This document shows, piece by piece, positions 126-56,836 of a stretch of 64,000 nucleotides of DNA; position 1 is the stretch's first letter; the number at the start of each line of letters is the position of its first letter. The notes under the pieces are model-generated. The model did no database searches and was not told the DNA's origin. It worked only from the letters and a program-made list of their open reading frames with translations. Both the position numbers and the translations under genes were made by a program. The DNA comes from Cyathus striatus (taxonomy: Eukaryota; Basidiomycota; Agaricomycetes; Agaricales; Nidulariaceae), in assembly GCA_025738555.1 (NCBI GenBank), contig JAOVFP010000010.1:3162001-3226000 (forward strand), read 5' to 3'.

Positions 126-735
126 CAAAAATGTGGGAAAAGTGTGATACATTGAAAAATGTTGGAAAAGTGTGACATGTTGGAAAAAGCATAACATATT
201 TGGAAAACATTGGAAACAAAGGTGTGGCATATATTCACTATGTGTAGTAAGTATGATTCTGTGTATGTGCTAGGGGGGAGGGGGGAATTGTGAATATATA
301 TGACAAATGTGACATGTGTGAATATATGTGACAGATGTGATATGTGCGAATTTAGGTGAGAACAATGTGACACTTGCTAATATATATGAGATCTATAATC
401 ACCTATAATCACCTTGAAAATCATATATAGTAATAATATATAAATATGCACTTCAAATGACCTATGATCACCTATGATCACCCTGGAAATTATTAGTAGC
501 TCTGAAATCATTAGTAGTAATAATATGTGAATACACACTTGAAATGGCCTATGATTACCTATAATCACCTTGGAAACTATCAGTAGTAATAGTATGTGAA
601 TATGCACCTGAAATAACCTATGATCACTACTACATTCATTAGTAACCCATAGATTCATTAGTAAATATATAATAGTAGGTGCTCAAAAAAAGCCCTAGCA
701 GCACTCAAAAATCCTGGGCTTTTTGTGATCACAAT
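125..735. repeat. Dispersed repeat copy, no gene
   Basis: Bases about 125-410 are nearly identical, in the same orientation, to about 19900-20290. The stretch includes the GGGGGGAGGGGGGAATTG tract and the TGTGACATGTGTGAATATATG runs. Bases 400-650 hold CCTATGATCACC-type repeats. Reading frames here are low-complexity translations of TGTCACA repeats. At about 728-741 the sequence ATTGGCTGACACT is the outward end of the TGTCAGCC foldback family also seen at 33585 and 36229. Confidence 0.5.
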
Positions 736-772
736 TGGCTGACACTAGTGATTTTGAGATAGTGGATGAGGG

Positions 773-2621
773 CAGTATGTTGCACTCTCCCACAGTTATC
801 ACTGGACTCTCACTGAACTCTCACCAGACTATTAAGAGTTCAGTGAGAGTCTCACTAGACTATCAAGAATCCAGTGAGAGTCTCACTACACTATCAGTAG
901 GGCACATGGACTCTACCTGAACTCCACTGAACTCAAGTGCCTAAGCTGTACTTAGACTCTATTGTCACAGTTGTAATATGTTTCTCACAGTCATCACACT
1001 TGTCACACATGTGTGAAAGTGTGCCATGTTGGAAAATGTTGGAAAAGCATGAAATGTGTGACATCCAACATTTCCGACATGTCATGCAGGCTTTGTTATT
1101 GCAGTTGTGGTGTGTTTCCCACAGTTATCATACTTGTCACACATGTGTGAAAGGTTGGAAAATGTGGGAAAAGTGTGGTGACTAAACTTTACCTAGACAC
1201 TATTGTCACACATGTATGAAAGTGTGACATATTGGAAAATGTTGGAGAAAGCGTGACATGTGTGACAAGTATGGGAAAAAGTGTGACATGTTGGAAAAAG
1301 CGTGACATGTTTGGAAAACGTTGGAAACAAAAGTGTGACAGGCATGGGAAAAGTGTGACATGTTAGAAAAGTGTCACATATCATAATCATTACACTTATC
1401 CAACTTTTTCCAACATGTCACACTTTTTCCCATACTTGTCACACATGTCACGCTTTCTCCAACATTTTCCAACATGTCACACTTTCATACATGTGTGACA
1501 ATAGTGTCTAGGTAAAGTTTAGTCACCACACTTTTCCCACATTTTCCAACCTTTCACACATGTGTGACAAGTATGATAACTGTGGGAAACACACCACAAC
1601 TGTGACAACAGAGCCTGCATGACATGTCAGAAATGTTGGAAAAAGTGTGACATGTTGGGAAAAGTGTGACAAGTGTGATGGCTATGATATGTCACACATA
1701 TCACACATGTTGTGCTTTTTCCAATGTGTCACACTTTTCCAATATTTTCCAACATGTCACGCTTTTCCAAGATGTCATACAGGTCACATGACTGCTTTGG
1801 TGCAGAGAGATCTCATGAAATATTGTGTGGGAATTTGTAACAACAGAGTTAAATGTCAGAGACTGTACTGAGAGTTCAGTGACTTATTCTCACTAGATTC
1901 TCATTGGACTCTCTGTGATTCATTTCATTATACTATCACTACACTCTCAGAGATTCTCACCCAGTGAGAATTAAGTGAGATTTTACTGAGATGAAAATCA
2001 TACATTTTCTCACTGTAGTCTCAGTAAACTCTCACTGAACTCTCACTACTCTCTCATTCTATCACTATATTCTCACTGGATTCTCACTGGAGTATCTGAG
2101 AATCTCATGAGAATCTCACTGAATTCTACTGAGAATGTGGGTCAGTGTCAGGTCCTCACATTTTCCAACCTTTCACACATGTGTGACAAGTATAATAACT
2201 ATGGGAAACATATCACAACTGTGACAATAGAGTCTGTGACATGTTGGAAAATGTTGGATGTCACATATGTCATGCTTTCCAACATGTCACCCTTTTCAAC
2301 ATATCACATATGTCATGCTTTTTCTAATATGTTACACTTTTTCCAACATTTTCCAACATGGCACACCTTCACACATGTGTGACAAGTGTGATGACTGTGG
2401 GAAACATGTTACAACTGTGACAATAGAGTCTAGGTATAGCTCAGGCACTTGAGTTCAGTGGAGTTCAGGTAGAGTCCATGTGCCCTACTGATAGTGTAGT
2501 GAGACTCTCACTGAATTCTCAATAGTCTAGTGAAAGTTTAGTGAGACTCTCACTGAACTCTCAATAGTCTGGTGAGAGTTCAGTGAGTCTAGTAATAACT
2601 GTGGGAGAGTGCAATATACTG
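773..2621. mobile_element. E-a, long foldback element with TGTGACA repeats
   Basis: Both ends carry CAGTAT(G/A)TTGCACTCTCCC reading inward. Arms of several hundred bases are inverted copies of each other and share ACTCTCACTGAACTCTC repeats, a GTGCCTAAGC-type segment and a block of TGTGACATGTTGGAAAA repeats. Unlike the other bounded elements, both ends are of the gene B-side type and the flanking octamers (GATGAGGG and TATAACAG) do not match. It may therefore be a rearranged or chimeric copy. No coding sequence is supported. Confidence 0.7.
1760..2160. repeat. Direct repeat shared with 14564-14930
   Basis: This part of E-a is repeated at about 14564-14930 in the same orientation: TTTGGTGCAGAGAGATCT, then TCTCACTGTAGTCTCAGTAA, ending in GTCAGTGT(C/A)AGGTCC. 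The second copy has an extra segment near its start. The shared edges suggest a sub-module with its own ends. Confidence 0.6.
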
Positions 2622-2686
2622 TATAACAGGGTTTCTTACTAATAATATAGGAAAAAAATTAATTTAATAAATATTACCTTGGAGAA

Positions 2687-2760
2687 TTGAACCATTGATG
2701 TTGAGAATAGCTGGCACTTAATAAGCGCTAACTAATACATCATTAACTGCTAGGCCATAT
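2687..2760 (-). other. tRNA-like sequence (SINE or tRNA remnant)
   Basis: On the minus strand an A-box-like TGGCCTAGCAGTTAATG is followed about 45 nt later by a B-box-like GGTTCAATTCTCC and then A/T-rich sequence. It resembles the tRNA-like blocks at 36862-36950 and 53562-53640. The acceptor stem does not close convincingly, so a functional tRNA is unlikely. Confidence 0.4.
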
Positions 2761-2879
2761 GGTCCTTGTTAGCAAAGATATGCAACTCCCTATAGCCAAC
2801 CTCTGGGTGAAATGTCACATGCTGCACACACTGCCACAAACTGCCAGTGCTGCATGTTTTATCATCATTGCAAACAATG

Positions 2880-3565
2880 GCAGCTCCTTGCTCTTCTTTC
2901 CTCTGTTCTCTGCTCTGCTCCTTCTCCCTTCCTCCTTTTTCCTCCCCTCCTCTCTCCTCATTCATCATCTCATCCCCTCCCTCATCTCATCCCCTCATTT
3001 AGCAATTGATGAGTGTGGCATCAAGCAGCCTTCATCTTATCAGTGACATGACATAGCTAACATCTTCTTGTCCCCCTCCTCTCTCTCTCTCATGCATAAA
3101 CTAACCCCCTCTCCCTCTCCCCCACCCTTGTCTGCAAGCAATGGGGGCAAGTGTCTTCACTGGCTGCTGGCTTCTCCATGTGCCAGCCTTCTCCTTCACC
3201 ATCTCCCTCACCCATGGCCTCACACCCTTTCTCTGCCCTCATCTTGCAAGTGACAAGGGCACATGTTTCCTCCCCTCCATCACCATCTCCTGCACCCTTG
3301 TCTGCAAGTGATGAGGGTGAGCATTCTCTCTCCTCACTCATAGCCTCATGTCTCTTCTTGGCCCTCATTTTGCAAGTGACAAGGGTGCTTATTTCCTCCC
3401 TTCTTCCTTGCTGTCTCTCTTGCACTCATCACTTGCAGACAAGGGCAAGTGTTCTGTCTCACCCACATCTCACCCACAGCCATGCACCTCCTCTATGCCC
3501 TCATCTCACAAGTGATGAGGTGTAGATATGGCCTCCCCCTCTCTCTCCCTCTCCCTCACCTCATC
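2880..3565. repeat. Pyrimidine-rich degenerate minisatellite
   Basis: The stretch alternates CT-rich tracts with units like TCTGCAAGTGATGAGGG and TTGCAAGTGACAAGGG at spacings of about 60-120 bases. Reading frames exist on both strands, but the composition is Ser/Pro or Arg/Glu low complexity and mirrors the repeat, so no gene is called. Confidence 0.6.
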
Positions 3566-3574
3566 TGCAATCCA

Positions 3575-3665
3575 GTAGAGTCCAGTAGAGTTCACCTAGA
3601 GTTCCAAAGTCTACCTGAAGTCCACCTGAAGTCCACCTGGTCTTGTGGAGGAGTGCAATATACTG
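3575..3665. mobile_element. Orphan element end, gene B-side type
   Basis: Repeats of AGTCCACCTGAAGTCC run to GTGGAGGAGTGCAATATACTG; inward this is CAGTATATTGCACTCCTCC. It matches the gene B-side end of E-g (56828) and E-c (7730). No partner end or target duplication was found, and E-a and a tRNA-like block lie to its left. Confidence 0.55.
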
Positions 3666-4333
3666 TTTTATCTTAAGTCATAATTAGGTACATTTATATA
3701 ATAATTATTCTTATTTTAAAAGCTATTTACATAGGATTTACACAAAAATGTGGTACAGATGTTTGTCAGTAAAGCTAGTAATAAAGAATGTATCACATAG
3801 ATCAAGTACAGTACTACTTGTCTATTGCACTGGGGCAAAGGAACTAAATTTAGAGAATAGGTGCACACTTCTTTCAAAAATATTCTTTCTATTGAAATTA
3901 TTTCACCCAGTTTATCTCTATCTTTATCTTTCATGGGAGATATTTTGTACATTAGATGATTGTAATGAGATTCATCTGGTATGTTACTAAACCACTCAAC
4001 ATATGCTAAATATTCAGGATTATCAGAGCCATTATGAAATGTTTGTGACCATAAATTTGGTGGAAGTGAAAATGTAACATATATATATCCAACTTTGAAT
4101 TCTGTAGAAACAAAGTTGTCAATTAACTTTAATAATAATAAAAGTGACTTAACATATGGAATGTATGACATTGTTTTAGTGTGGGATATTGAATGAACAT
4201 GAATAGAGTCTGATACTTACATATTGCCAGTATCACTGTGTGCACAGTTACATAATAATTCATCTATTATGGAATGAAATGGTAAAAAGAAGTGCACCTT
4301 TATCATAACTTTTGCATTTTTACCATAAAATTT

Positions 4334-5545
4334 GAGCTCTTTATGCTCCCCCCCCCCCTTTCACGTGAATTTCATGTGAACTTCATGTGAATTTCAGGTG
4401 AACTTTTTGCATTATTTTTGCTGAATTTCAGTGAGAACACTGCTAATAATTTCATGTGAATTTTGCATGAATTTCATGTGAAGATGAAGTGAAAATTCAT
4501 GTGATACTCATATGAAGCTTATACAAGAGTAGAGTGTAATACTGCATGTTGAGTGTGACACTGAGGGCTGAGTGTGACACTGAGAGCTGAGTGTGACACT
4601 GAGGGCTGAGTGTGACACCGAGAGCTGAGTGTGATACCGAGAGCTGAGTGTGATACCCAGAGCTAAGTGTGACACTCAGGACTTAAGTGTGACACCCAGG
4701 GCTAAGTGTGACACTGAGAGCTGAGTGTGACACTGAGAGCTGAGTGTGACACTGAGGGCTGAGTGTGACACTGAGGGCTGAGTGCGACACTGAGAGCTAA
4801 GTGTGACACCTAGGGCTGAGAGTGACACCCAGGGCTGAGTGTGACACCTAGAGCTGAGTGTGACACCTAGGGCTGAGTGCAGTCATCAAACTTGTCACAC
4901 ATGTGTGAAAGTGTGACATATTGGAAAATGTTGGGGGAAAAAGAGTGACATGTGTGACATGCGTGGGAAAAAATGTGACATATTGGAAAAGTGTTACATA
5001 CCATAATCATCACATTTGCCACACTTTCCGACATGTCACATTTTCCCACGCTTGTCACGCACGTCACACATTTTCCCATGTTTGTCACACATATCACTCT
5101 TTTTCCAACATTTTCCAATATGTCACACTTTCACATATGTGTGACAAGTTTGATGACTGCACTCAGCCCTAGGTGTCACACTCAGCCCTGGGTGTCACTC
5201 TCAGCCCTAGGTGTCACACTCAGCCCTTGGTGTCACACTTAGCCCTCAGTGTCCACACTCAGCTCTGGGTGTCACACTTAGCCCTGGATGTCACACTTAG
5301 TAGTGTAATGACCTCCAATTTTTAATGTGAATTTCACTGTATTTTCACCTAAATTTCACTTAAAATACATGAAAGTTCATGAACCTATGCTTTTTGGAAA
5401 ATATTTAAAATCACATGAAGTTCATGTAATTTCATGTGAATTTCATGTGAATTTATATTAAATAGGTGAATTTCATGTGAATATGTGAATTTTAGGTGAA
5501 TTTCATGTGAATTCATGCTGAAAGGGGGGGGAGTGTAAAGTACTG
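4334..5545. mobile_element. E-b, 1.2-kb non-autonomous foldback inserted in the Plavaka gene
   Basis: The element is flanked by a perfect 8-bp duplication TAAAATTT (4326-4333 and 5546-5553). The left end is GAGCTCTTTATGCTCCCC and the right end, inward, is CAGTACTTTACACTCCCC. Next come C or G runs and then copies of TTTCATGTGAATTTCA as inverted arms. Inside are tandem GTGTGACACTGAGGGCTGA units (about 4545-4880), a TGTGACATATTGGAAAA palindrome (4880-5155) and the inverted tandem units (5160-5300). It has no gene. Confidence 0.88.
4545..4880. repeat. Tandem repeat, period about 19-20 bp
   Basis: About 17 units of TGAGTGTGACACTGAGGGC and variants follow each other. A shorter inverted set lies at 5160-5300, making the centre of E-b a large hairpin. 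The unit is closely related to the 20-bp unit of E-f and E-h. Confidence 0.85.
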
Positions 5546-7729
5546 TAAAATTTCCATAATTGGCAATGCATTATGTAGCTGTGCACCTGGTGTATACTGA
5601 TCAATTCTCTGATACTTAATATAGTGTCAGACTCAGTAATTTTTAATGGCATATGTACATCTCACAATTCCTTTTTTATTAAACTTGGTAACATATCAGA
5701 ATTGTTACATTTGATAACATATTTGGCAAATGTATTTCTAAAGTCAATTGCATCATATTCAACTTCAAGTGCATCTAGGCTAACTTTACAAGTACAAGGA
5801 AACTTTGACAAATGTATAGTTCTGTCAAGCTCAAGACCATGGGGCTGCCATTTATAATCTCTTGGAATTGGTTTTTCTGATATACACCAAGCAATGAACT
5901 GTTCATGACAATGTATATTTTCCTTTCTTTCAAGCCACCTTGTCATTTGTTTAAATTCATCCTTGTGATTGCTTGCTTTATATGCTTTCTTTGCTAAATT
6001 AATAATGCTACAAGATGTTTATAACACCTTGATGAAGTTGATGAAAAACATCTGGTGAGATTGATTGGTAAATATCCACATGTGGAAAGATTTTCCAAAA
6101 AGGATCAATTACAGGTTTCACTTGTTATTCTTGGCATGTTTGTAGAAAGGCTGCAGTATTTACATCAAATGAATCAAGTACATCTAAAATGGAATTAAGG
6201 TCATAATATGAAGATGAAACATCTGAATCAAAGTCTTCCAACTCAGGTTTAACAGCAGAACAAGTTGGGCAATCTCCTCAGTATACACAGGTTGTTAAGA
6301 CCTGCTCTGGATAGTCCCCTATAAATACAGCAAATAGTGGATACATGTGCCATAAACAACTATTAGCAGTAGTCATATGAAATCCATTCTCACTAAGTGT
6401 CTCCAGTAGTTTTAAGATAGTTAACATACATGCATGATATAGATTGGCAAGCATACACCACCAAGAAGACTTATTGGTCACACTTTCTAAATGTGTAGTT
6501 GTAAATATCCAAGTAATATATATGCTCTTGCTGATGGTTTCTTATAAATCTCTTTTGGAATATTTTCAATTGTAAGATAAACAGAATAGGCTGTTTTGTT
6601 TTGAAATAAAGTTAACTGTGTCTTATCAATTGATATAATTATTGGAACAACTGTTGAGCCAGGTGTTTTTGTTTCCAGCTATTTCTATAATTATATGAGA
6701 AAATATTAGCAATTATTATTATAATGTTAGTTCAAATCTATTCACCTGTTTTTCTCACCATCACCTTTCTGTATGCATATCATGGTACATTCTAGTTGTT
6801 TTAGTACCATCTGCATAGTACTTTTCAAGTTCAAATACTAGATATAGTGCAAATTTGGAATCTCCTAGTAGTGTTTTGACACAGTCAATTATATCTCAAA
6901 ATTATACATCACAAGTTTCATTTCCAATACAAATTTCCTTGCAAACAAAATGTGGATACCCAGGTAAGTTGTTATCAATTCTTTGATTGAGTTCTAAGTA
7001 AGAGTTAAAAGTGAGCCCTAATTTATCAATAACCTAATACATTTAATATTTGCCTGGTTAAATTACTTTATAATAATATAAAAATTACCCCATCAAGTGG
7101 TCAAATGCAATTGAACTTGGCCCTTGGAGTTTAGCCCATTTGTCTATTTCCCATTTCAACTTAAATTTAAATGAGTGATAATAATTTTTTCCATTGGCAA
7201 ATTTAGCATGGTACTCATCATGTTGAGTGGTATTATTAGTTGATATAACTCTGCCTGCTTTTTTACCAAATTTCTTCACATGTGGTGTGTTATGCAGTTG
7301 CTACTCAACTCCTCCTCAAATGCAAAATGCTTTATTTGTTATATTTAATTCTGTACCTTTCTCATCAGACTGTATTAATTGTGTGTCAGAATGTGTATGC
7401 ACAAGTTCCAAAAATGACTCTTCTTCTGCATCCAGTACTTCTTCAAAATCCTCTCTCTCATTGTCATGATTTTTATTGCCATTATCAATATCAAAAAATT
7501 GTGTAGGATAATCAGCATAATCTCTATAGAGATCATTGCAGTATCAATCTGAACATGGAATAGACCTAGCAAAGGTGCCAAAGAGGATACAGTGTTTTAA
7601 GTGGAAATATTAGGAATGTCTGCATCAGAATCAATATCCATTTTGAATTCCATACTTGAAGTTAAAGATTTATTATCAATATTCTCTGTGTGGTTCTACT
7701 CATAGTGAAGTTGGCATAATGGATCAGTG

Positions 7730-8505
7730 CTGTATATTTCACTCCTCCACGAGATCAGGTGGACTCCGGGTAGAGTCCAGGACTCCATGTGGACTCCAAG
7801 TGGACTCCACCTGGACTCATACTTTTCCAACATTTTTCAACATGTCACGCTTTTTCCAACATGTCACACTTTCACACATGTGTGACAACTTGTCGTATGA
7901 TGACTGTGGGAAATATGTTACAACTATGACAATAGAGTTTAAGTACAGCTTATACACTTGAGTTCAGTGGAGACCAGGTAGAGTTCAGGTAGAGTCCATG
8001 TAGAGTCTAGGTAGAGTTGGATTGCTTGAGTCCAGGTAGAGTCCAGGTGGAGTCCAGGTAGAGTCCAAGTGGAGACCAGGTAGAGTCCAGGTAGAGTCCA
8101 TGTAGAGTCTAGGTAGAGTTGGATTGCTTGAGTCCAGGTAGAGTCCAAGTGGAGTCCAGGTAGAGTCCAGGTAGAGTCCAGGTAGAGCTCTACCTAGACT
8201 CTACATGGACTACCTGGACTCTACTGAACTCAAGTGCCTAAGTTTAAGCAACTGGGCTCTACCTGGACTCTACATGGACTCTACCTGAACTCTACTGAGC
8301 TGAATTGCTTGAGTCTACTGGACTCCAGGTGCAGTCCAGCTTCTACCTGGAGTCCACTTGAAGTCCATGTAGAGTCTATAATTTTCTCTATGTAAAGTCC
8401 AGGTGAAGTCCAAGTGGAGTCCAGGTAGAGTCCAGGTAGAGTTCCAGAGTCCAGGTGGAATCTACATGGAGTCTACATGATTTCATGGAGGAGTGTAATG
8501 ACCTC
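7730..8505. mobile_element. E-c, non-autonomous derivative of the E-g type
   Basis: The left end is CTGTATATTTCACTCCTCC and the right end, inward, is GAGGTCATTACACTCCTCC, the two E-g ends in inverted order. The flanking octamers GATCAGTG and AATCAGTG differ at one base. The interior consists of GTCCAGGTAGAGTCC-type repeats plus a TGTCACA segment near 7840-7930. No gene is present. Confidence 0.82.
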
Positions 8506-8513
8506 AATCAGTG

Positions 8514-9465
8514 CTCTTGTGAAGATGAGCAGCAAGACCTCTTCACTTAATTTTCCTTTTGCAATCTTGGTATTGAGTCATTGATGATTGAGGTATCAAG
8601 TACTAGTGCTTGAAGACTTGTTGGTTGTGTCTAGTCATGAATCCAGTGTGCCATTGTGAAGGAATTATATGTTTGACACATAGTGAGTGTCACAATCTGA
8701 TTTGACTATGTTAGAGAACTACCTATAGAATAGTTGTCAGCTAGTATAAATTTGAAATGCACTTAGCTAAAGATATTGAATATGGTTGACACTCTTTGAG
8801 GTTATTGAAGTTCAGTATGACTCTGATATGTGCACAGTAAAAGTTTACCAAAAAAGAGGTAAAATTTTGGAACTCAAAGTTTCTTTCTTAAATACAACAT
8901 AGTAATACAATTTGGATGACATCCACATACTCTCATGCTATCAGAGCCAATAGAATTGAGAATTTGTATATAGAAAGGCCATTTGAGAGAGAACAAGAAA
9001 CTCATCTGCTCCAAATTCAACAAAACAATGATATGCTACGGCAGCTCACACTTAACAAGACTACAAGACTAGTTATGATGCTTTGAAATGGCTATCCTCC
9101 CAGTTAAATAGCTGCAGGTGACCAAGCTGCATTGGTAGCACAACAGCTAGTGGTGGTGGGGTGCTCAGTCTGACAGTTGCAGTTCCATTATGTAATAGAG
9201 CATGGAGAAGAATTTGAAATAAAGCCAATAATGGCTACTTGATATAATACAATAAAAGCTTGAGAGAAAAAGTATGGAGAACAAATAGACATAGACAATA
9301 CATTGGATAACCCTAGCTTCAACTGATAACCCTACTCCTCCTTCAAGCCTATGAATGTATTAGGTGATCATAGACAATTATTAATTCATCTAATTGAATA
9401 CTACTATTGTATGGATTCATTGGGAATAGAAATGTGAGTAGTAATATCCACTGGGCAAGTAAACA
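8514..9465. other. No recognisable gene
   Basis: The sequence is unique-looking A/T-rich DNA with stops in all frames. A short frame near 8920-9060 with a repeated-Gln/Arg character could be a gag-like scrap, but nothing diagnostic is visible. Confidence 0.3.
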
Positions 9466-52553: not shown

Positions 52554-53561
52554 ATCATGAATATTGCTATTTTGCTGAACACCAAATTAGTACCTTTGCT
52601 TTGTTGGTTGAATATATAATATATCTTACAGCTTGTTAAGTAGTTTCAGATGTCTTAATGATAGATATTGTTAATATTATTTAGACTGGTTTAGCAAAGA
52701 ATATTATTAAATAATGTACAGTCTGGTGAAAATAGTTTCATGAGTCAACCAATTGATATAACTGACAAGACTTACAGTAGTGGGAGTCATTTTTGTAAGT
52801 TTACTAGAAAATGTCCTGTTAGATAAAAGAAATTCTGATAGTTATTGAGGATGACAGATTATAAACCAGATTAAGTACACTTGGAACATATATAATTTCT
52901 TACATTAACATGAATCATACTTATTATGGTCAGCCACTTCAATTGTGAGATATAATATGAAGATATGAATATCTCAGCAACAAGTGAGGCTACCAGCATA
53001 ATCTTTTTTGTGTTAGAATTGTCTCAATTAGATCTATCTATTGGTGTATAGAATGTAAAATGCAGAGGTGTGTACATATACAAACTCAATATTCTCATGG
53101 GTAAATAAATGGAAAAAGGGAGGTCATTACACTCCTCCACGAAATCATGTAGACTCCATGTAGATTCCACCTGGACTCCAGGACTCCACCTGGACTCCAC
53201 CTGGATTCTACCTGGACTCTACTTGGACTCTAGCCCGAATCATGACCAGCCTATTTTCTATGTAAAGTCCAGGTGGAGTCCAGGTAGAGTCCAGGTAGAG
53301 TCCAGGTAGAGTCCAGGTAGAGTCCAGGTAGAGTCCAGGTAGAGTCCAAGTACTACCTGGACTGTACTTGGACTGTACTGGACTGAAGCACTGGAATCAA
53401 GTGGAGTCCAGGTAGAGTCCAGGTAGAGTCCAGGTGAGTCCAGGTTGGGTTCATCTGCACTCTACATGGACTCTACCTGACTCCACCTGAACTCCAGGTG
53501 GACTTTCCGGTAGAATCTTCATCACATTAGAATTATTACTCTTACTTATATATATAAAAAA

Positions 53562-53640
53562 AATTACCCCAGAGCGGTTCGAACCCAAGACGTCAGCAAT
53601 TATTTAAATACATGCACAATTACCACTAGGTTATTGGACC
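53562..53640 (-). other. tRNA-like block in E-g
   Basis: On the minus strand GGTCCAATAACCTAGTGGTA (A-box-like) is followed by GGGTTCGAACC (B-box) and then a run of T that could stop RNA polymerase III. The T stem pairs poorly, so a working tRNA is unlikely. Position and outward orientation match the E-e block. Confidence 0.5.
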
Positions 53641-53818
53641 TTGTAAAGTAATGGTAACTTACTCTTCTTAACAAGCTCGCAACCAGTGTCACGTGTTTCA
53701 AATATATTGCTAACGTCGTATGACACATTCATATTTAACTTTGGAGATCAAGAAGAAGGTATATTTGTATTATTTATCAATTCATTAGTTTTACTTATTC
53801 ATTTATATAGATGTACTT

Positions 53819-54746
53819 ATGATTCCATCCAATAACACACAAGGCGAAATTCATCTATTCCTGAAGCGTGATCATACTGAAGCAGATTACATTATTGACA
53901 ATCAGACTTCAGGTTCTGATCTTGCTACTGTTCTTGAAGTTGTTGCTGAATATTGGGAGCTGGTGTCTGGTATGTTCTCATACTAATACTACAAATAATA
54001 TGACCTAATAAGTATTATAATTAGATAAGAATTCACCTATTTCAGTTCGTAAGAATGGAAAATGGATACTGAAAGGAAGATTCTCCAAAGCCTCACAGCA
54101 ATCTGATGCACTTGAGTGGAGACATGAGAGTAATAAGTACATTGTTGAGATTCTAGCAGATGGTGCTGTAGAGCAGCAAATTCCAGGGCTATCTTCCATG
54201 TTTACATTTGATAAGCCATCCAAGTCAAAATCCAAATCATCAATGAGTAATAATGATATAACTCAGCTGCTTATATCTCAATTTGAGATTCCCAAACATC
54301 TTCAAAACATGAGTGGGAAGAAGGACAGTATAAGAATGACATATTTGAAATACTGTAAGATCAATGAGATCTTTAATAAAGAACTGGAGATGGCTTCTTT
54401 AGCAGATGTAGCTGGCTGTCATATTGACAAAAAACTGATAATTTCTGTGTTCATGGCTCCCTCTACATATTATTCATATCCATTTAAGGTCTTTCCATTG
54501 TTGAGTTATGATCCAGCAATGGAAAGTTGGTTTGAAGAGGATGAACCTGATAAGAATTATACAAAGGCTGTGTGGGAAAATTTATCACCTAACTTTGGTA
54601 ATTTACAAAAATTACTAGAGGGCAAGAAAGGTGCCATGGACCAGCGGGCAAAACAGAAAGAGAGAGAGTCAAGTGAGAAAGAGAAAGAGAAAGAGAAAGA
54701 GAAAAGTAAGAAGTCACACAGAAAGGAAAAGTCTAAGAAATTGTAA
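53819..54746 (+). CDS. Gene A copy 3: unrecognised partner protein, intact frame
   Basis: Two exons (53819-53969 and 54046-54746; GT-AG intron of 76 nt) encode about 283 residues. The ATG at 53819 is the first in frame after a splice-acceptor-like TATATAG, so an upstream leader exon may be missing; the Ser-rich N-terminus of copies 1 and 2 is absent. Blocks: IHLFLKRDHTEADYIIDNQT; EWRHESNKYIVEILADG (about residues 75-91); MFTFDKPSKSKSKSSMSNND; QFEIPKHLQNMSGKKDSIRM; a core STYYSYPFKVFPLLSYDPAM plus ESWFEEDEPDKNYTKAVWEN (about 190-235); and a KEKEKEKEKSKKSHRKEKSK tail. It is the best-preserved member of the family. No known domain was recognised; a DNA-binding accessory role is inferred only from the charged tail and the linkage to gene B. 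Confidence 0.7.
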
Positions 54747-54809
54747 GAAGTTTATTTTATTTTAACTTTGGCTTTATTTTGTTTGTCACATGTTCTTGCT
54801 GTCAATTTT

Positions 54810-55115
54810 GATTGAAATACTTCAACAGTATTTCTAAATAAATAAAAAATTACCTGCTTTCAACAGCAGATTTATGCTACTCATTCTTGGTTGAGAATAT
54901 TTCAACAATATTTTTCAACTTTGTACAAATTATCTACTTTCAACAGTAGGCCTGTCTTATTTTATGTTTCAGTTGGTTGGATATTTTCAACAATTTTGCC
55001 AAACCTTGTACAATACACTACTTTCAACAGTAGTTTATCCTTCAATTTGTTTTATATTGGAAATATTTCATCAATATATTTTCAACTTTTGTACAGCTAC
55101 CTACTTTAAATAGTA
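54810..55115 (+). repeat. Intergenic hairpin array, copy 3
   Basis: Hairpins in gene sense: AATACT-TCAAC-AGTATT (54816-54832), CTGCT-TTCAAC-AGCAG (54854-54869), CTACT-TTCAAC-AGTAG (54934-54949), ACTACT-TTCAAC-AGTAGT (55017-55034), plus weaker ATATT-TCAAC-AATAT forms. The CTGCT/AGCAG and CTACT/AGTAG pair is a compensatory change. Confidence 0.8.
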
Positions 55116-55229
55116 GATTTATTTATTTTCTGTTGATGTACTTGATGTAGCTCTAATATTTTATAAATTTCTATTGGCTACAACACTATTAATTATAAGT
55201 CAAATTCACTAATATTATATTTTCACAGG

Positions 55230-56640
55230 TGTGGTTTTCTACTGCAAGGTCTACTTCAAATTTGGCTGCTACTTGTATTCTTGAACAATGTTCCTCAAGT
55301 AAAAGCATCATCACTAAATGATTCTTTTCCTGATATCACATTCAAAGTCTTCTCAAAATTTATAGGAAAAAACTTTGATTCATCTATTACTTTGGCAACA
55401 GTTTTAACATTACTTTTTACATTAACAAATAATGTAGACCTCCTCAATCTCCATGCAAGAGCAAAAAATCCAAATGTTGAGAGTGAATATTCTATGTTGA
55501 CTAATGGATGGATAAAAGCTTTAGCAGGTGCTATTCAGAGCCATATAAATGATGATGGTCAATTATTTGAAGATGAAGATATAATTTCACTAGATGTATC
55601 AACAAAGACAACCAATTTTGCCAAGAAACTTGATAAGATGATTGAAATGTTGTGCTTAAATCCCTACACACGAAAGACAGAACATGCACAATTTTTGAAG
55701 CCAATTTCTACCAATGAAATTGAGCCTGTATTACTTATTTGCCCTGCATGCATAACTTGTTCAACATCCAGGAAATTATGTGCTGGAAGAGCTTTGCATC
55801 TAAATACTCGTGGACGTGACCGGGTTACAGTTAGATTGATGAAAGGGGTTCAATTACACAAAAATGCTCAGTTACTTGCAGGGACATGCCTGAAATGTAA
55901 AGCTATATATTATGCTGATTATAAAAGTATACTTCCTGAAAATGAGTATGATCCAGAAGATAAAGATCAAGAACAAAATAGTGAAAATGATAGCATTGAA
56001 GTACAACTATGGGATCCTCAATTGAGTTCTAAAGATACCATATTTTTCAACAAAGCAAAATATTTAAAGCTTGGTGCAAATATATGGGCTGACAGAGTAT
56101 TTACAACTATGGTTGTTAATTCTATTTATCATTTTTTCAAATGGTATTGAAAATGAAATACCACCAGTTTCACGCCGGCAGGTATGGAAAGCATTTATAG
56201 AAGAAACTACACGATACATTTCATTATCAACAAATCATGATTTGAGAATTCCTGATAGATTGTCAACTGAACATGTAACTAAAGCTGCATTTGATCAATT
56301 AGGGCAAAAAGGAATTATTAGCAATGCATTGCAACATTCATGCAGTGAATGTACTCATAAATATAAAGCTACAGCTGATATAATTACAGCTGATGATAAT
56401 GCTGCTGTTGTTGGTATTGATGAAAATAGGCATGTACCAAATTTGGAAAGAAATGCACGAAATCAGGAATTTCAGCATATGGAAGATAATGAAATGAGTG
56501 TTGATACTTCCAACACTACTAACTCTCCTGAATCTATGGTTAAAATGATAGTTGTTGATGGTATTGTTATGGGTCCAACTCACTGTGCATTTGAAAACTG
56601 CTCTGAACCTTTAAAAATGCATGTACTGGAGTTTTTTGTA
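55230..56640 (+). pseudogene. Gene B copy 3: CxC5 and CxC6 start, C-terminal half deleted
   Basis: After a TTTCACAG acceptor the frame reads a hydrophobic QIWLLLVFLNNVPQVKASSL, NLHARAKNPNVESEYSMLTN, GWIKALAGAIQSHINDDGQL, the CxC5-like cluster LLICPACITCSTSRKLCAGR with GTCLKCKAIYYADYKS (about 55735-55930), and NIWADRVFTTMVVNSIYHF. A frameshift occurs near 56140. The other frame continues with VWKAFIEETTRYISLSTNHD, HSCSECTHKYKATADIITAD (about 56335) and a CxC6 start MGPTHCAFENCSEPLK. It then passes straight into the subterminal repeats at about 56645. The part with CIDKAC and ACEQLNAWL in copy 1 is absent. No ATG precedes the hydrophobic start, so an upstream exon is likely. Confidence 0.78.
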
Positions 56641-56836
56641 TAACAGTCCAGGTAGAGTCCAGGTAGAGTCCAGGTGGAGTCCAGGTGGAGTCCAGGTAGA
56701 GTCCAGGTAGAGTCCAGGTAGAGTCCACCTGGAGTCCTGGAGTCTACCTGGACTCCACTTGGACTCCACTTGGAGTCCTGGAGTCTACCTGGAGTCCACC
56801 TGATCTTGTGGAGGAGTGAGATATACAGGAAAAAGG

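Follow-up and report, generated by a model that had tools for sequence, protein, structure and literature searches.

A CxC5/CxC6 element of Cyathus striatus with 8-bp target duplications is probably an internally deleted cut-and-paste DNA transposon

In sporeless Pleurotus ostreatus, a 6,792-bp insertion in MSH4 with short repeats and a 739-residue CxC5/CxC6 open reading frame (ORF) was described, and the insert that breaks the gene was tentatively tied to Copia, in the parts of Lavrijssen et al. 2020 (PMC7641404) that concern it. The same parts of that paper count 44 and nearly 60 copies of CxC5/CxC6, complete or truncated, in two Pleurotus genomes, and place intact canonical KDZ with CxC2 and never with CxC5/CxC6 (PMC7641404). 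Duplications of 8 bp are given for Zisupton and a Dileera element in the pertinent section of Kojima 2025 (PMC12730594), and Kyakuja is characterised there by 7-bp duplications, CA..TG termini and no inverted repeats; the Zisupton of Pristionchus has a multi-exon transposase of more than 1000 residues according to the passage that treats it (PMC9297572). Here an element of Cyathus striatus is analysed that lies in a stretch of 64,000 nucleotides, called the window below (assembly GCA_025738555.1, contig JAOVFP010000010.1, positions 3,162,001 to 3,226,000 of the forward strand). Very probably it is an internally deleted, non-autonomous cut-and-paste DNA transposon of the CxC5/CxC6 (KDZ-associated) kind, the complete form of which encodes one multi-exon transposase. 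The genomic sequence directly shows common ends, 8-bp duplications, empty-site paralogues, complete relatives of 8.3-8.8 kb and a two-sided loss in the window copy.

The element occupies positions 53120-56828 on the plus strand between two copies of the octamer GAAAAAGG and terminates in GAGGTCATTACACTCC at 53120-53135 and, on the minus strand, in CTGTATATCTCACTCC at 56813-56828 (Table 1). The original prediction of an element bounded to the base by a perfect 8-bp duplication, with a gene A and a CxC5/CxC6 gene B inside, is confirmed as to its borders. Its ends had been called asymmetric, which is true of the outer half-dozen bases, where they diverge most strongly (GAGGTC versus CTGTAT), but over 40 bases they form an imperfect inverted repeat with 28/40 bases identical, the highest value in 2000 shuffles being 19/40. 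Empty sites, also envisaged by the original prediction, were found as paralogues: when the window flanks are joined over one octamer, six other genomic places match them at 89-91% and continuously through the junction, each with a single octamer, GGAAAAGG in place of GAAAAAGG. The likeness fades beyond about 18 bases to the right of the junction, and these places are good but not perfect evidence of insertion because the sites are paralogous.

Table 1. Positions of the element, its parts and a related element in the window
Feature	Position	Strand	Remarks
Left target-site duplication GAAAAAGG	53112..53119	none	Octamer recurs at 56829-56836; paralogous empty sites carry one octamer
5′ terminal end	53120..53159	+	28/40 bases shared with the 3′ end as an imperfect inverted repeat
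Left subterminal array of GTCCAGGTAGAGTCC-like repeats, both orientations	53149..53510	+
Left internal deletion zone	53658..53734	none	Lacks about 4.1 kb, corresponding to C3 bases ~541-4598, by blastn comparison with the C3 and C8 copies
First surviving exon of the putative transposase, start of 'gene A'	53811..53969	+	ATG at 53819; upstream exons deleted; start inferred from AG at 53809-53810
55-bp intron	53970..54024	+	C8/C11 subfamily without intron
Second surviving exon, 'gene A'	54025..54742	+	5′ splice site GTAAG at 54743 overlaps the apparent stop 54744-54746
486-bp intron between 'A' and 'B'	54743..55228	+	Acceptor TTTTCACAG; TACTTTCAACAGTA-type palindromes
Exon 'B' to the frame break	55229..56137	+	Hydrophobic stretch at start; CxC5 match 55725-56135; short deletion relative to the C3 copy near 56132
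Remainder of exon 'B', other frame	56138..56645	+	Extends to the beginning of CxC6 and to VVDGIVMG, the motif of the first catalytic Asp; truncated by the right deletion, which removes about 1.05 kb relative to the C3 copy
Right subterminal repeat array	56646..56790	none
3′ terminal end	56789..56828	-
Right target-site duplication GAAAAAGG	56829..56836	none
Second element of the same family, 776 bp	7730..8505	-	Octamers CACTGATT / CACTGATC

The distribution of these ends was investigated in the whole genome of 107,453,461 bases in 24 contigs. With at most one mismatch the genome contains 274 places with the 5′ end and 116 with the 3′ end, while the patterns reversed as controls occur 2 and 3 times, and GTCCAGGTAGAGTCC showed 1173 + 1001 occurrences against 0 for its control. 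The 88 exact 5′ ends and the 100 listed of the 116 3′ ends gave 58 pairs of facing ends within 20 kb, two of them inside the window, and 30/88 of the 5′ ends stayed unpaired. The flanking octamers were identical in 32 pairs and differed by one mismatch in 9, by two in 1 and by four or more in 16. At most one mismatch is seen in 41/58 true pairs, compared to 6/3306 control pairings in which each left octamer was set against every other right octamer, and the genome-wide census thereby bears out a transposon with an 8-bp target duplication. No perfect match at any other duplication length from 4 to 12 was found in the first 32 pairs. A cross-match between two of the 16 pairs lacking a duplication, about 445 kb apart, was discarded as no more than the control yields. 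For 7/9 of the one-mismatch duplications the difference is T on the left versus C on the right at the base adjoining the first G of the element, which would suggest decay of a CpG created by the insertion and hence that the elements are methylated. One insertion is nested in another of opposite orientation (C3:3076168-3078342 within C3:3074944-3079154), both with perfect duplications.

Among the 42 pairs with at most two mismatches, 32 span 370-2410 bp, 4 span 3198-4211 bp, the class into which the window copy of 3709 bp falls, and 6 span 8251-10820 bp. As had been predicted, A and B lie between such ends in further copies as well: 13 of the 58 pairs enclose a match to A or B, always on the strand of the ends, and 7 of the 13 have the duplication, counted for the close family only (22 B and 19 A matches). 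The short elements make up the majority of the carriers of the shared ends and duplications and presumably derive from coding elements by deletion. The tie to foldback elements that had been drawn at first is thus retained in so far as the short elements have the same ends and duplications, but the window copy is no candidate source of their transposase, its catalytic part being deleted.

Three complete copies with perfect duplications are present at C8:2244166-2252493 (8328 bp), C11:2367120-2375782 (8663 bp) and C3:6323777-6332588 (8812 bp). All have the same order from left to right: an end with its repeat array, a low-complexity stretch, exons coding for disordered protein, then exons A and B, a short final part, and again a repeat array and an end. 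The last exon (ACEQLNAW...) has an interrupted frame in the C8 copy and is whole in loci such as L061 and L062, which belong to a second family. Over the 2.9 kb that they share, the window and C3 copies are 96.9% identical. By blastn the window copy is without C3 bases ~541-4598 and ~7560-8606, and so has lost the 5′ exons together with the greater part of the catalytic region; because the second Asp and the Glu are lost, it should not be able to encode an active transposase. In the second family, where gene B is 60-63% identical to that of the window, the ends are GAGGTCATTGCACTCC and GGAGTGCAATATACTG, and the GAGGTCATTGCACTCC pattern occurs at 4 genomic places, 4/4 of which pair with the 3′ end and have perfect 8-bp duplications. 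Ends were sought for the B families above about 50% identity. A further 28 gene B rows at 41-42% identity have similar scores (148-158 bits), which suggests a burst of another CxC5/CxC6 family. The subfamily of the window has the intron at 53970-54024, which the C8/C11 subfamily (about 76% identity in A) lacks, and this is a gain or loss of an intron within one transposon family.

The original prediction took A and B for two genes, but they behave as exons of one, and the available sequences argue that both belong to a single transposase gene. The A stop codon is situated inside a 5′ splice site (TT/GTAAG, TT/GTGAG or AA/GTAAG, the slash marking the splice point) in 31/33 of the A tails recognised by a pattern search of 47 stretches, the exceptions being L064 and L146, whereas only 176/8318 stop triplets of these stretches (2.1%) sit in such sites. 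This overlap spans families in which B identity to that of the window ranges from more than 80% to about 40%. The open frame is restored by acceptors such as TTTCACAG, TTCTATAG, ACTAACAG and TTTTTCAG, and when the window copy is spliced, A reads open into B as far as the deletion near 56132. No acceptor leading into B was found in L049 and L068, and for L137-L140 and L149-L151 the search gave no clear one. The intron measures 49 bp in L141-L144; that of the window, 486 bp long, is packed with imperfect palindromes around TACTTTCAACAGTA, and similar motifs are present in the L061 and L137 introns. Among the matches listed (135 B places of 163, with 15 short second pieces left out), A lies upstream of B on the same strand within 5 kb at 85/135 places, no other arrangement was seen, and 50 places have no A match, of which the three inspected (L143-L145) have readable A-like frames upstream.

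Continuity of the two parts is also seen in database proteins. By eye, an A-like part is followed by B in single proteins of Amanita muscaria (P0091, 1064 residues, and P0112) and A. rubescens (P0071), as well as in one chain of the partial Flammula alnicola P0056, and for P0091 hhalign gave a probability of 99.5 (E 4e-23). Sequence searches with A retrieved only Cyathus striatus proteins, 3 in one search and 12 in another, and the Amanita and Flammula A parts were recognised by reading the long B matches. Disordered upstream exons are joined to A in Cyathus striatus P0124 and P0125. The closest named relatives are from the same species: one is related to gene A and shares 95% identity with the C8 copy, and the other is a gene B protein that over 137 residues agrees with one genomic B locus at 99%.

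Gene B of the window matches Pfam CxC5 (PF18718, E 4.6e-9) and the start of CxC6 (PF18721, E 1.1e-5), the latter with 26 bits slightly missing the curated cut-off of 27.5, and gene A has nothing above cut-off in Pfam. Values for the C8 copy are 2.4e-14 for CxC5 and 1.3e-17 for CxC6, and those for Amanita muscaria P0091 are 7.2e-27 and 4.7e-18. Structural models predict an RNase H-like DDE fold with conserved acidic residues in gene B, and hence a DDE transposase whose RNase H fold encloses CxC6. No match to the KDZ catalytic profile PF18758 was obtained for gene B of the C8 copy (E<=0.1) or for P0091/P0012 (E<=10, HMMER filters applied), alignment of the catalytic part by hhalign to a KDZ profile of three partial sequences, the KDZ fragments of the host genome, gave probabilities of 0.2-0.3, and a sequence search against solved structures returned nothing credible. 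PF18758 itself has 159 matches in the host genome and constitutes a separate abundant group there. The A part matches ubiquitin-like folds with modest confidence, and a beta-grasp of the ubiquitin-like or DIX type is a candidate for it.

A conserved hydrophobic stretch precedes the (P)FPDI motif at the start of exon B (55229-55300 in the window). A mean hydropathy of 1.6 over 19 residues was reached before (P)FPDI in 41/51 testable rows and anywhere after it in 11, as judged by alignment columns (69 rows, 18 of them too short; 2 of the 51 were A-only rows). A regular expression count gave 25/28 testable rows, with 70 lacking the motif and 22 too short, and in 26/28 rows of this count the stretch ends in a signal-peptide-like manner (P.V.A).

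In the proposed mechanism the complete element would encode one multi-exon transposase. From a disordered N-terminus this protein would run through a ubiquitin-like domain and a helical domain that has a lysine-rich tail to a hydrophobic helix, the CxC5 zinc cluster and finally an RNase H-like DDE domain, the first strand of which is followed by the inserted CxC6. It would bind the subterminal GTCCAGGTAGAGTCC arrays and the inverted ends, excise the element and insert it at an 8-bp staggered cut, and it would also act in trans to mobilise copies that carry deletions, among them the short foldback elements. Retention of the intron may be a route to the A protein alone. A more speculative and rather doubtful extension is that CxC5/CxC6 proteins form a DDE superfamily of their own beside KDZ, with a zinc cluster that interrupts the RNase H core behind the first catalytic Asp and a ubiquitin-like domain on the N-terminal side linked through the conserved signal- or anchor-like hydrophobic helix, the transposase perhaps being anchored at a membrane, for instance the nuclear envelope, or controlled through retention of the intron that separates its halves.

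It is improbable that one transposon carries A and B as separate genes, A for an accessory protein and B for the transposase. With the intron retained A does close at its stop codon, which is where the automatic Cyathus striatus annotation ends it (P0124, P0125), and many database homologues of B begin at or near the hydrophobic stretch. Yet this stop and a canonical 5′ splice site overlap in 31 of the 33 recognised cases, the intervening intron is 49 bp long in the L141-L144 family, the window frame is open once A and B are joined, and the proteins of Amanita muscaria, A. rubescens and Flammula alnicola continue through A into B.

Still less likely is that the CxC5/CxC6 gene is a passenger and that the mover is another transposase, either a canonical KDZ or, as considered for Pleurotus, a Copia retroelement. 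The ends and 8-bp duplications are unlike those of a long terminal repeat retroelement, a DDE fold with conserved acidic residues is predicted in B itself, and B is the only evident enzyme in the complete copies as judged from their ORF lists rather than from profile scans of whole copies. For the passenger speak the canonical KDZ genes that the host genome contains as well (159 matches), and the proximity of CxC5/CxC6 ORFs to Copia and the restriction of intact canonical KDZ to CxC2 in the relevant parts of Lavrijssen et al. 2020 (PMC7641404). A juxtaposition by chance or recombination of unrelated repeat ends around gene fragments has the least to recommend it and is largely refuted by the census: 16/58 end pairs are without duplication, some of them possibly mispaired, nested or recombined, but 7 duplication-bearing pairs enclose A or B matches oriented as the ends, control octamers agree in only 6/3306 pairings and empty-site paralogues are present.

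CxC5/CxC6 genes are abundant in mushrooms, and in the pertinent parts of the Pleurotus report their nature was left open and they appeared with no adjacent KDZ transposase in an insertion that abolishes spores (PMC7641404). With the ends and an 8-bp duplication defined, and a DDE domain predicted in the CxC5/CxC6 protein itself, it becomes testable that this protein is the transposase, so that an orphan class of mushroom proteins becomes a testable transposase. The family provides copies with and without coding sequence on which mobility can be tested, as well as a putative transposase whose hydrophobic helix calls for an explanation, and the result bears on the MSH4 puzzle, where Copia was tentatively invoked in the text concerned (PMC7641404). 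The pairing of A with CxC5/CxC6 had been considered unknown; both parts do occur in the Amanita and Flammula database proteins, but no publication describing the pairing was found, nor one on the ends, duplications or catalytic domain of CxC5/CxC6 elements, most subscription journals being outside the search.

Many short repeats near inverted ends, likely transposase binding sites, are characteristic of CACTA and other elements with subterminal arrays, and such arrays are common to these and to the Cyathus family; CACTA-like elements differ in having other target-duplication lengths and other transposases. The MSH4 insert of Pleurotus resembles the Cyathus family in its CxC5/CxC6 ORF and differs in the link to Copia suggested in the portion of the paper devoted to it (PMC7641404). 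From Kyakuja of Laccaria, which belongs to the same broad group of Agaricomycetes DNA transposons, the family is set apart by its 8-bp duplications, GAG..CAG or GAG..CTG termini and imperfect inverted repeats. Likeness to KDZ elements, Zisupton and Dileera in particular, consists in a multi-exon transposase of more than 1000 residues (probable in the Cyathus family), inverted repeats, an RNase H-like DDE fold, here known from predicted models only, and clusters of the CxC type, which Pfam names after KDZ and which are present in the Cyathus-family protein. The family differs from KDZ in giving no PF18758 match, in having CxC6 within the RNase H domain, and in its A part with a possible ubiquitin-like fold (modest confidence) and hydrophobic stretch before CxC5. 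Its 8-bp target duplication matches that given for Zisupton and Dileera in the section of PMC12730594 on these elements, and the family is of the known KDZ-associated kind with an 8-bp duplication and not categorically new.
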